This document shows, in pieces, positions 5,237-8,796 of a stretch of DNA of 33,867 bases. The translations under genes and the position numbers were made by a program. Every line of letters begins with the position of its first letter. Position 1 is the stretch's first letter. The DNA comes from Ktedonobacterales bacterium (GTDB lineage Bacteria; Chloroflexota; Ktedonobacteria; Ktedonobacterales; JADMIN01), in assembly GCA_025935195.1 (NCBI GenBank), contig JAICVS010000036.1, positions 1 to 33,867 on the forward strand. The letters run 5' to 3'. The notes under the pieces are model-generated. The model had not been told where the DNA came from, did not search any database, and was given only the letters and a program-made list of their open reading frames with translations.

Positions 5237-6079
5237 TTACTGGAGCGGAGCGACGTCGAGGGTCGCGGCGAACCAGACCTTGCCAACATTCTCGCCAACT
5301 ACGTCGCCCGGCTTCTTGTCCTTGATATAGGTGTAGAGTGGATGGCTGTTGTACGTCAGCATAGTGCCGCCGGCCGGATTGGCGATGGTGCCCAGCGCGC
5401 CGGGAACCGGATTCGCGCTGGCGAGCGTGCCGGAGGGCGCGGCCAGCGGCGGCCAATTCTTCGCGCAGCCACCGGTGCAGGCGACCTTGCTCGCTGTGTC
5501 GGGCTTGTACCAGTAGAGCGTCATGCCCTTGCTGTTGGTCAGCACCCAGGCTGGCTTGCCGGCCAGCGTCACCTTGCGCGCATGCACCGCGGCGCTGCTC
5601 GCGGCGCCGAGGCTTTGCAGCTTGGGCGTCGCTACAAACCACACACCGTTGACGCCCTCACCGTTAGCGTCGCCCGCCTTCTTGTCGTTGGCGTAGAAGT
5701 ACAGCGGCACACCGTTGTACGTCACCTGCTTGGCGCCGCCGTCTCCGGTGACGATACCGAATCTGCCCGGCGTCGCGGCGTCGCCCACCGGCGTGGTGGA
5801 GCTGGCCTTGAGCGGCGGCCATGCCTTCGCGCAACCGCCTGTGCAGTTCACCTTGCCCGCGTTGTCGGGCGCGAAGATGTAGAGCGTCCTGCCCGTGTTG
5901 GCGTCCACCAGCACCGTTTTGCTCGCGCCCTTGACCGAGACTGACGCCGTCTTGACGTCGGCCTTGGCCGTCGTCGTGCTGGCCCCGCCGCTCGCCGAGC
6001 CGCCGCAGCCCGCGAGCAGCACCGCGGCAAGCAGCCCGAAGCTGGCGAGAAAGAGAGATGTTCGTCGTTGCGGTTGCAT
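5237..6079 (-). CDS. COG4315-type secreted repeat lipoprotein
   Basis: Start set at ATG 6079, because the reading from there gives a clean lipoprotein signal peptide (MQPQRRTSLF... LLAGC, lipidated Cys25); the longer track start would bury it. About 280 aa. After a Ser/Thr-Ala linker there are two tandem units of about 110-120 residues, each with TLY(I/W)(F/Y)..D, CTGGCAK.WPPL, and a closing PLY.Y..D...GD. This is the two-unit architecture of the Lipoprotein_15/COG4315 family. Known: extracellular lipoproteins of unknown biochemical role, often near electron-transfer or stress genes. The Cys pairs and Trp-Pro-Pro cores are conserved in both units. It is divergent from the response regulator and shares a promoter region rich in 11-bp-spaced direct repeats, so regulation by that regulator is likely. 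Confidence 0.85.
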   Translation of the reverse strand: MQPQRRTSLFLASFGLLAAVLLAGCGGSASGGASTTTAKADVKTASVSVKGASKTVLVDANTGRTLYIFAPDNAGKVNCTGGCAKAWPPLKASSTTPVGDAATPGRFGIVTGDGGAKQVTYNGVPLYFYANDKKAGDANGEGVNGVWFVATPKLQSLGAASSAAVHARKVTLAGKPAWVLTNSKGMTLYWYKPDTASKVACTGGCAKNWPPLAAPSGTLASANPVPGALGTIANPAGGTMLTYNSHPLYTYIKDKKPGDVVGENVGKVWFAATLDVAPLQ

Positions 6080-6205
6080 ATGCGTCTCTGTCGCCTCCAA
6101 TGTCACTGATCTCACCTGTGAATAGGTCAACGGGAGTGGGTCGCGCTCCATGCCGGTGCGCTGCCCTGGGACATCGCGAACCCGTCACAAAGATAGGCGG
6201 CAAAT

Positions 6206-6296
6206 CTGAAGGGACGACGACACCTGGCTGAAAGAATGCTGAAGATCGCACCCGTCTCTGCCCGCCACGCCGCCCGCTTTCAGCGAATTTTCAGCC
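6206..6296. promoter_or_regulatory. Predicted OmpR-type regulator binding sites in divergent promoter
   Basis: Three CTGAAG/A half-sites start at 6206, 6228 and 6239 (22 and 11 bp apart), and two TTTCAG half-sites start at 6278 and 6289 (11 bp apart) in the opposite orientation. An 11-bp direct-repeat period is what OmpR/PhoB-family dimers bind. The sites sit between the COG4315 lipoprotein and the response regulator, with a TATTCT -10-like box near 6328 upstream of the regulator. Autoregulation is inferred. Confidence 0.6.
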
Positions 6297-6379
6297 GTGA
6301 GAGGTAGCGTTATCCCGCGGCGTACCTATTCTTGTCTAATCCGGGTGACGCAAGCGAAGGCGACGAGGTGGAGGCGCAT

Positions 6380-7108
6380 ATGACGCAGGCGATGGCGCGG
6401 CCCTGGCAGCAGCAGCCTGCCCGTGGCGGGGAGAGTGCGCGGCACCCGCGTGTGCTAATCGTGGATGACGAGCCGCACATTGTGGACTTCCTGCGCATGG
6501 GCTTCGAATACGAGGGATTCGAGACCGCCGTCGCCACCAGCGGCGACGAGGCCCTGCGCGCCGTGAAGGCAACCTGCCCGGATATCGTCATCCTTGACAT
6601 CATGCTGCCCGGCCTCAACGGCCTCGACGTGGCCCGGCTGCTCCGGCGCGGCGACGACACTGGCATCATCATGCTGACAGCGCGCGAGGCCGTGGAAGAT
6701 CGTGTCGCCGGCCTGGATGTCGGCGCCGATGATTATCTCACCAAACCGTTCGCGTTTAAGGAGCTGATGGCGCGCGTGCGCGCGGTGCTGCGCCGGCGCG
6801 GCCGCAACCTTGAGCACATGCTCGCCTTCCAGGATGTCACGCTGGACCGTGAGACACGCGCGGTCATGCGCGGCGAGCGCCCGATCGAGCTGACCCCGCG
6901 CGAGTTCGAGCTGCTCACGCTCTTCCTGATGCACCCGCGCCAGGTGCTCACGCGCGACGTGATCCTCGCGCACGTCTGGGGCTACGATTACGAGGGCGAC
7001 GACAATGTCATCGAGGTCTACGTGCGCCACCTGCGCGAGAAACTGGACGACAACCCGCCGAAGCTGTTACGGACGGTGCGCGGCGTCGGCTATGTTCTGC
7101 GTGGTTGA
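6380..7108 (+). CDS. OmpR-family response regulator
   Basis: The track start is TTG at 6332; ATG at 6380 follows GGTGGAGG at ideal spacing and is preferred (242 aa). Receiver domain (about 23-137): acidic pocket DDE at 29-31, phospho-acceptor D73 in VILDIMLPG, T100 and K122 in YLTKPF. A C-terminal winged-helix DNA-binding domain (about 150-240) has ELTPREFELL and the usual VRGVGYVLRG ending. Known: phosphorylation by a partner kinase drives dimerisation on 11-bp direct repeats. The kinase gene follows 47 bp downstream, so they form one operon. Inferred targets: its own operon and the divergent COG4315 lipoprotein. The physiological signal is unknown; copper or redox stress is a guess from the neighbours. 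Confidence 0.95.
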   Translation: MTQAMARPWQQQPARGGESARHPRVLIVDDEPHIVDFLRMGFEYEGFETAVATSGDEALRAVKATCPDIVILDIMLPGLNGLDVARLLRRGDDTGIIMLTAREAVEDRVAGLDVGADDYLTKPFAFKELMARVRAVLRRRGRNLEHMLAFQDVTLDRETRAVMRGERPIELTPREFELLTLFLMHPRQVLTRDVILAHVWGYDYEGDDNVIEVYVRHLREKLDDNPPKLLRTVRGVGYVLRG

Positions 7109-7155: not shown

Positions 7156-8796
7156 ATGCGACGTGCGGATAAGGCGCTCGGCACGCCGGGCGCACGCCTA
7201 CCGATCCGCTGGCGGCTGGCGCTGATGTCGTTCGGCCTACTGGCGCTGCTGCTCGGCGCGCTGGGCGCCGTCGTCTCCGTCACCGAGGAGAACGCTCTGC
7301 TCGCCAACCGTGCTGTTGAGCTGCACCGCGAGGCCTGGCTGGCCGCCACGCCGATGAATCAGACCGTGTACTCGTTCGCCTATGCCGGCCAGACAGTCTC
7401 GCCGCGCGCCAAGACACCGCCTCCCCAGGCGAAACCCGTCCTCACCGCGCTCGGCCAACGCCTGACCAACCCCGGCACGCGCGTCTGCATCATCTGGATT
7501 GACGGCGCCCAGCAGGTGATCGGCCCCGTCCCCGAACCCGACATGGCCCCAGTCGATCCGCCGGCGCGAGTTACACTCGCTGGCGCCCTCACGAGCCAGG
7601 CCTTCAGGAGCGTGCCCGCGACTGATTGGTACACAGTCGCGCCCGACGCCGAGGGACAAAGCCAGCTCGTCGTGCTGCTGCCAATCGTCGATCAGGCGAA
7701 CCACGACACCATCGCGCTGCTCCAGGTCGGCACCCCCACCGCACCCATGATGGAGGCCGTCACGACGACGCGGCTCGTGCTCGCCGCCGGCATCGCCATC
7801 GCCCTGCTGATCGCCGCCGCCGTCACGTTCCCGCTGATGGGCGCGGGGCTGCGCCCGTTGGTCGAGATGGAGCGCGCCAGTGGGCGCATCGCGGCTGGCG
7901 CGCTCTCGCTCCGCCTGGCGGAGCCGCCCGCGCGCGACGAGATTGGTCGCCTGGCTCGTTCGTTCAACTCCATGGTGGCGCAACTGGAAGACGCCTTTAC
8001 GCGCCAGAAGCGTTTCGTGGCCGATGTCTCACACGAGCTGCGCACTCCACTCACCGCGCTGGGCGGCGGGCTGGAGATGCTGCTGCTCGGCGCGGACCGT
8101 GGCGACACCGAGGCGGCGCGGCGGCTCACTCGCGGCATGTATGCTGAAGTGGACCGCATGCGCCGGCTGGTGGAGGATCTGCTGACGCTGACACGCCTGG
8201 ACGACGGCCAGGCCGGGCTGCGCGCGGATCTGGTCGCTGTCGCGTCCATCGTCGCCGAAGTCTGTGAGCAGGCGCAGCGCCTCGCCAGGGGTCAGACCGT
8301 CCGCTGCGACGTGGAGGCTGGGCTGCTGCCCATTCGCGCCGATGCCGATCGGCTGCGGCAGGTGCTGCTCAACCTGCTCGATAACGCGCTCAAGCACACT
8401 CCCACGACTGGCACGATCACCATCATCGCACGGCGCGAGGGCGCCACGACCGTCGCGCTGGCGGTCAGAGACACGGGCCGGGGCATCCCCGCCGAGGCAC
8501 TGCCACACGTCTTCGACCGCTTCTACCGCACCGACCCTGCGCGAGCGCGCAGCGGCGAGCGCACCGGCGGCGCGGGCCTCGGCCTCTCCATCGCGCGTGG
8601 CCTGGTGGAAGCGCAGGGCGGCCAGATCGCCATCGAAAGCGCGACCGGCCGTGGCACCACCGTCACCCTCCGCTTCCCCATCGCCGCTGCCGGCACAGAG
8701 CAATCGGCGCAGCCAGTGCCCGTCCTCTCCGCTACAACCGCGCCGCTCACCGGCAACGTCCCATCCCCGGCCGAGCCACCTGTCCCCGTCGAGTGA
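7156..8796 (+). CDS. Sensor histidine kinase
   Basis: ATG at 7156 has GGGAG eight bases upstream and is preferred over the TTG at 7105 that overlaps the regulator stop codon (546 aa). Membrane segment 1 (about 20-42), an outside sensor region of about 165 residues without a recognisable fold, membrane segment 2 (about 206-228), HAMP (229-280), HisKA with H293 in FVADVSHELRTPL, and HATPase with N-box LLNLLDNALKH, G1 VRDTGRGIP, F-box FDRFYR and G2 GAGLGLSI. All catalytic boxes are intact. A Pro/Ala/Thr-rich tail of about 40 residues follows the ATPase domain. It pairs with the upstream OmpR-type regulator. The sensor domain has one Cys and no His/Met cluster, so direct metal sensing is not evident. 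Confidence 0.95.
   Translation: MRRADKALGTPGARLPIRWRLALMSFGLLALLLGALGAVVSVTEENALLANRAVELHREAWLAATPMNQTVYSFAYAGQTVSPRAKTPPPQAKPVLTALGQRLTNPGTRVCIIWIDGAQQVIGPVPEPDMAPVDPPARVTLAGALTSQAFRSVPATDWYTVAPDAEGQSQLVVLLPIVDQANHDTIALLQVGTPTAPMMEAVTTTRLVLAAGIAIALLIAAAVTFPLMGAGLRPLVEMERASGRIAAGALSLRLAEPPARDEIGRLARSFNSMVAQLEDAFTRQKRFVADVSHELRTPLTALGGGLEMLLLGADRGDTEAARRLTRGMYAEVDRMRRLVEDLLTLTRLDDGQAGLRADLVAVASIVAEVCEQAQRLARGQTVRCDVEAGLLPIRADADRLRQVLLNLLDNALKHTPTTGTITIIARREGATTVALAVRDTGRGIPAEALPHVFDRFYRTDPARARSGERTGGAGLGLSIARGLVEAQGGQIAIESATGRGTTVTLRFPIAAAGTEQSAQPVPVLSATTAPLTGNVPSPAEPPVPVE

Follow-up and report, generated by a model that had tools for sequence, protein, structure and literature searches.

The window, i.e. 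the whole stretch of 33,867 nucleotides analysed here, is contig C216 of a 4.74-Mb assembly (277 contigs, about 88% complete), whose nearest named relatives are Ktedonobacterales (Chloroflexota), among them Thermogemmatispora and Ktedonobacter robiniae. It contains a gene for a COG4315 lipoprotein, which is divergent from an operon of an OmpR/PhoB-family response regulator and a histidine kinase. The lipoprotein gene (5237-6079, minus strand) encodes a secreted protein with four repeats (Lipoprotein_15, PF03640; Pfam 8.8e-45), in which a MQPQRRTSLFLASFGLLAAVLLAGCGG lipobox can be read from the sequence; its probable start is the ATG at 6079, with an in-frame alternative at 6151. The regulator (6380-7108, plus strand) possesses a receiver domain (Response_reg, 1.5e-30) and a winged-helix domain (Trans_reg_C, 1.3e-28), and the residues of its Asp/Lys phospho-acceptor pocket are invariant across 15 orthologs. 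The open reading frame opens at a TTG at 6332, and the ATG at 6380 is the probable start. The kinase of the same operon (7156-8796, plus strand) is of the HisKA type with an extracytoplasmic sensor domain and a HAMP domain. With a low-confidence model of this kinase, a fold search yielded nothing beyond generic kinase cores and WalK (the best PDB match) and thus gives no identity for the signal.

The intergenic region between regulator and lipoprotein harbours two opposed arrays of the half-site TTCAGC, three half-sites on the minus strand and two on the plus strand. The array facing the lipoprotein begins with TTCAGC at 6238-6243 (GCTGAA on the plus strand), followed at +11 by TTCAGC at 6227-6232 (7-mer TTTCAGC, 6233-6227) and at +33 by TTCAGA at 6205-6210, whose plus-strand reading TCTGAA differs from GCTGAA by one mismatch. 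The array facing the regulator consists of TTCAGC at 6279-6284 and 6290-6295 (7-mers TTTCAGC at 6278-6284 and 6289-6295). The half-sites are thus arranged head-to-tail with 11-bp spacing (7 + 4), as in OmpR/PhoB direct-repeat operators, and they adjoin the gene of a response regulator with the receiver and winged-helix domains of that family. Spacings of 22, 11 and 11 bp had been noted in an earlier reading of this DNA and were found as described there; the arrays themselves likewise were present, the positions given in that reading being one base too high (+1) for the left array and one base too low (-1) for the right. The phasing by multiples of 11 bp holds inside each array only: the arrays are 41 bp apart and therefore have no mutual phase. 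Nor is the layout symmetric, as had been proposed, since three half-sites (0/11/33) on the lipoprotein side stand against two on the regulator side.

Pattern searches of the 4.74-Mb genome gave three exact copies of TTCAGC-N5-TTCAGC, of which two lie in this intergenic region; the background rate of TTCAGC dyads with at most one mismatch is 24 in 4.74 Mb. Dinucleotide shuffling of the intergenic region, repeated 20,000 times, produced two opposed 11-bp direct repeats of any one hexamer only once, and the present case is the only one within the 33.9-kb window. The N5 dyad is not enriched genome-wide over other spacers (N4 1, N5 3 and N6 5 in the window's own genome), so that the argument is one of position and conservation and not of abundance. 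Enrichment of the N5 dyad was dropped as evidence, N6 being equally common or commoner, and the excess of N6 dyads may stem from in-frame coding repeats. Another genome (G007:C211:1530-1579) has TTCAGC five times in perfect tandem with a unit of 11 bp (TTCAGCGTCAT), a stretch that is possibly coding.

Regulator orthologs with 66-72% identity were found in 17 genomes. Absence of the motif from orthologous promoters, named in the original prediction as what would speak against it, was looked for, and a dyad with at most one mismatch is present in the promoter of the regulator operon or in the divergent region in all 17 orthologs of at least 66% identity, these genomes and promoters being related to one another and hence not independent. 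A dyad occupies the same place in Ktedonobacter robiniae and Ktedonobacter sp. SOSP1-85, while in one genome (G036) it lies in the divergent region and is oriented away from the regulator. Altogether the dyad is kept at one place in about ten genera, and at the regulator promoter TTCAGC[GA]AATTTTCAGC is kept unchanged or with one base altered in several of them. In two incomplete MAGs (G035, G027) sites are present and the ortholog was not detected.

The gene beside the regulator, by contrast with the operator, varies: it is a DUF5666-type secreted protein, an acyl-ligase/acyltransferase operon or the COG4315 lipoprotein. The DUF5666-type protein is part of the regulator operon in G008 and G033 (checked with Pfam) and in g14 and Ktedonobacter (read from the sequence). 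A divergent acyl-ligase and acyltransferase operon adjoins the regulator in the Thermogemmatispora-like g12 and also in g15 and g21; the left arrays of g12 and of the window agree in their 22 + 11 spacing, yet they face different genes, and no acyl ligase of the g12 kind was found in the window genome. Inner branches of the regulator tree are mostly weak, and the tree singles out no partner gene as ancestral. In the g12 genomes a conserved neighbourhood (L095/L096) with an acyl ligase, a membrane acyltransferase and a PLP decarboxylase is apparently under the regulator.

Alignment of the promoters yielded a simple rule, according to which the -10 hexamer begins 15 bp past the start of the last half-site. 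Two promoter forms follow it, one with half-sites at 0/11 and the -10 at +26, the other with half-sites at 0/11/33 and the -10 at +48. Among 28 related promoters, 15 have TAnnnT at +48 and 6 have it at +26 (mean 0.6 per offset), and the third half-site at +33 is present in 18 (mean 0.7 per offset), counts that were made largely on the promoters from which the grammar was derived, the genome search described below being the more independent test. A 0/11/22 variant with the hexamer at +37, upstream of a ccdA-like gene (G012), also fits the 15-bp rule. In the window, the lipoprotein promoter has its -10 hexamer TATCTT at 6190-6195 (minus strand), +48 from the first half-site, and is the only match without mismatch to the three-half-site grammar in its own genome. 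On the regulator side the grammar search gave the candidate hexamer TAGCGT at 6305-6310 (plus strand, +26), the only match without mismatch to the two-half-site form (type A) in that genome. This hexamer is weak and has a rival, TATTCT at 6327-6332 (plus strand, +48), which goes with a degenerate third half-site and is a match to the three-half-site form (type B) with two mismatches. A fixed distance to the -10, as in OmpR/PhoB-type operators, is thus found here as well.

We searched 41 genomes with the full 17-base three-half-site grammar, allowing up to two mismatches and taking the reversed pattern as control. This gave 116 matches, compared with 12 for the reversed pattern, which differs from the grammar in dinucleotide content. 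Fifteen matches were exact, where a uniform-base expectation lies far below one, and all 15 fell into eight genomes that hold the ortholog (G000, G002, G005, G008, G010, G019, G029 and G033). With the ortholog held by 18 of the 41 genomes, the hypergeometric probability of this restriction is about 5e-4. Exact matches outside the set from which the rule was derived precede genes for GtrA (G019), HlyD (G008) and an FMN dehydrogenase (G019); in G019 the latter adjoins an acyl ligase.

The theme common to the predicted targets is the cell envelope. The site precedes the acyl-ligase operon where this adjoins the regulator and also where the two are unlinked (G029, G008), and eight paralogous acyl ligases have no site. 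It is also found before an acyltransferase gene (G035), before the gene of an HtrA-like protease (Trypsin_2 and PDZ) and, in g12, g15 and g17, before a MoxR-DUF58-TgpA operon. Within the family to which the window belongs, no examined MoxR gene has a site; the MoxR operon was therefore discarded as a universal target, the site being restricted to some f2 genera and absent from the window genome and the other family members examined. In the window genome itself, a PD40 lipoprotein gene on contig C167 is preceded by CTCAGCGAATTTTCAGC. Of twenty other COG4315 loci inspected, including two in the window genome, none has a site (0/20), which rules COG4315 out as a conserved member of the regulon; the lipoprotein of the window is a lineage-specific partner of the predicted operator. 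The suggestion that the regulator controls both its own operon and the lipoprotein is accordingly supported by the conserved distance to the -10 on both sides, with the predicted control of the lipoprotein confined to this lineage.

By sequence, the closest solved relative of the regulator is PhoP of Mycobacterium tuberculosis (2.5e-64), which binds 7-bp direct repeats with a 4-bp spacer as a tandem dimer; in the complex with DNA, contacts to TCACAGC come from Asn212 and Glu215 at its CAGC end and from Val213, Tyr217 and Tyr220 at its 5' end (PMC4832192). Asn225 and Glu228 of the regulator align with positions 212 and 215 and are invariant in 15 orthologs, so the CAGC end of the half-site and the residues contacting it are common to both systems. 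In contrast, the repeat is TTTCAGC-N4-TTTCAGC here and TCACAGC-N4-TCACAGC in PhoP, and Val229, Arg232 and His233 at positions 216, 219 and 220 replace the base-contacting Ser216 and Tyr220 and the phosphate-contacting Ser219. A half-site with CAGC kept and the 5' half changed to TTT agrees with conserved residues 212 and 215 and altered residues 216 and 220. Neither the TCACAGC half-site nor the same set of base-contacting residues, by which an ortholog of PhoP could be told, is present. Besides DR1 and DR2, PhoP has a third repeat (DR3) at a distance, the gap varying from 13 to 35 bp, and its own autoregulatory site is reported downstream of +1 (PMC3413638), whereas here the gap before the third repeat is constant at 16 bp, as is the register of this repeat with the -10, and the putative autoregulatory site lies upstream of the promoter.

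A similar mixture of agreement and difference emerges from other systems. The pho box of E. coli consists of two 11-nt direct-repeat units, each of 7 well conserved and 4 less conserved nucleotides (PMC4415409), and its spacing to core promoter elements is strict (PMC10294691). Both the 11-nt direct repeats and the strict distance to the core promoter recur here, but the repeat is CTGTCAT in PhoB and TTTCAGC in our sequences, and no phosphate genes were found among the targets examined. The regulator scores below the equivalog cut-offs of PhoB (221.6 against 296.2 bits) and MtrA (230 against 300 bits), as it does for every NCBIfam model listed. The CutR/CssR secretion-stress systems of Streptomyces resemble it in being two-component systems with HtrA-type targets; CutR binds TAWATAAA (PMC12802291), a word unrelated to TTTCAGC, and its site was rejected as the same operator.

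Taken together, the arrays look like real, conserved landing sites, predicted for the adjacent regulator. We consider it probable, at roughly four chances in five, that the region is a bidirectional operator of this PhoP/PhoB-type regulator, which would activate both sides as part of an envelope-stress response. The phosphorylated regulator would bind as head-to-tail dimers on TTTCAGC-N4-TTTCAGC, and with the promoter-nearest half-site 9 bp upstream of the -10 it would, by analogy with PhoB, take the place of a -35 element and recruit RNA polymerase. On the right side, this would produce positive feedback on the regulator-kinase operon, and on the left side the COG4315 lipoprotein would be driven from the three-half-site promoter. 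Envelope stress is the most likely signal because the same grammar precedes envelope genes in relatives.

Other readings of the same arrays have to be weighed against this. The arrays could be bound mainly by a CTCAG-type OmpR-family paralog of the same genome, for which the neighbouring regulator would be only one target. Upstream of their own genes such paralogs (52-58% identity) have CTCAG/TTCAG arrays of the same 11-bp phase, followed by the -10 at +48, and the genome has about 66 regulator-like matches; since the paralogs share the template with CTCAG-type half-sites, cross-talk or cross-binding is possible. The strict TTCAGC form, however, tracks the ortholog, as shown by the distribution of the exact three-half-site matches (15/15) and by its presence at the operon of each ortholog. 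Moreover, CTCAG-type paralogs (L048, L050, L052, L056 and L057) have Gly-Tyr in the recognition helix where the orthologs have Arg-His, a contrast with exceptions, as the paralog on C172 and L054 keep the Arg and L047 keeps both Arg and His. We regard a paralog as the main binder as rather improbable. Repression of the lipoprotein or of the regulator itself, with the -10 register reflecting occlusion, appears about equally unlikely: the sites are close to the -10, and regulators of the PhoB family can act either way depending on the position of the site (PMC10294691), but occlusion requires no fixed register, whereas the distance between the last half-site, which would stand in for a -35, and the -10 is fixed at 9 bp.

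That TTCAGC is conserved at a fixed distance to the -10 would also be expected if it were the -35 element of an alternative sigma factor. We reject this idea as very improbable: a -35/-10 pair needs a longer gap than the 9 bp found here, and the element recurs in two to four copies with 11-bp phase. Least credible of all are chance repeats in a GC-rich intergenic region. The lack of any excess of the N5 dyad over N4 or N6 across the genome would suit them, but they are refuted by the conservation of the dyad in the same place in about ten genera, in addition to the rarity of such an arrangement in shuffled sequence.

The design, a direct-repeat response-regulator operator, is known; neither an earlier description of the regulator, the DNA word and the likely envelope targets nor a described regulon of comparable kind in Ktedonobacterales was found in a limited search of the open-access literature. 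For an uncharacterised two-component system of Ktedonobacterales the analysis provides a predicted binding word together with a promoter grammar and a candidate regulon for envelope stress, and the grammar is precise enough for predicting regulated genes from sequence alone. Natural variation in half-site words, recognition-helix residues and half-site number offers a test case for the choice of DNA by PhoP-type regulators, and an operator that keeps its place while the adjoining genes change is a useful case for study. More tentatively, and with doubt prevailing, one may think of a promoter code throughout this clade of Chloroflexota, in which TTCAGC- and CTCAG-type PhoP-like regulators would share up to four 11-bp slots ending 9 bp before the -10, its members differing only in the slots filled and in the half-site word, and in which whole target genes would be swapped beside a conserved two-way operator. 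If so, the lipoprotein in the window would be one example of such swapping and, in Thermogemmatispora, the acyl-ligase operon another.

Further arrays of related form were encountered. Paralogous OmpR-family regulators of five genomes (L335, L336, L337, L334 and L343 in G027, G038, G013, G035 and G001, respectively) have four-half-site arrays with CTCAG/TTCAG/CACAG/TTCA at 0/11/22/33 and the -10 at +48, which represent a second, related regulon; arrays of this type also precede a TerC-like gene and an apparent site-2 protease gene. In a Thermomicrobiales MAG (L160, 5718-5771) the gene of a 46%-identical regulator is preceded by an array of four TTCA(G/T) half-sites and by TATCAT at +48; this occurrence outside Ktedonobacterales suggests a template older than the order. 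Two opposed four-half-site arrays of the same template, with mixed TTCAG/CTCAG words, are located in the window's own genome (L010; G000 contig C148, around 6847-6900 and just beyond) between the genes of a universal stress protein and a baeRF-family protein. Finally, in the same genome, CTCAGC-N5-CTCAGC occurs on the opposite strand (L115; contig C172, 22199-22215) about 200 bp upstream of a paralogous regulator with 56% identity.
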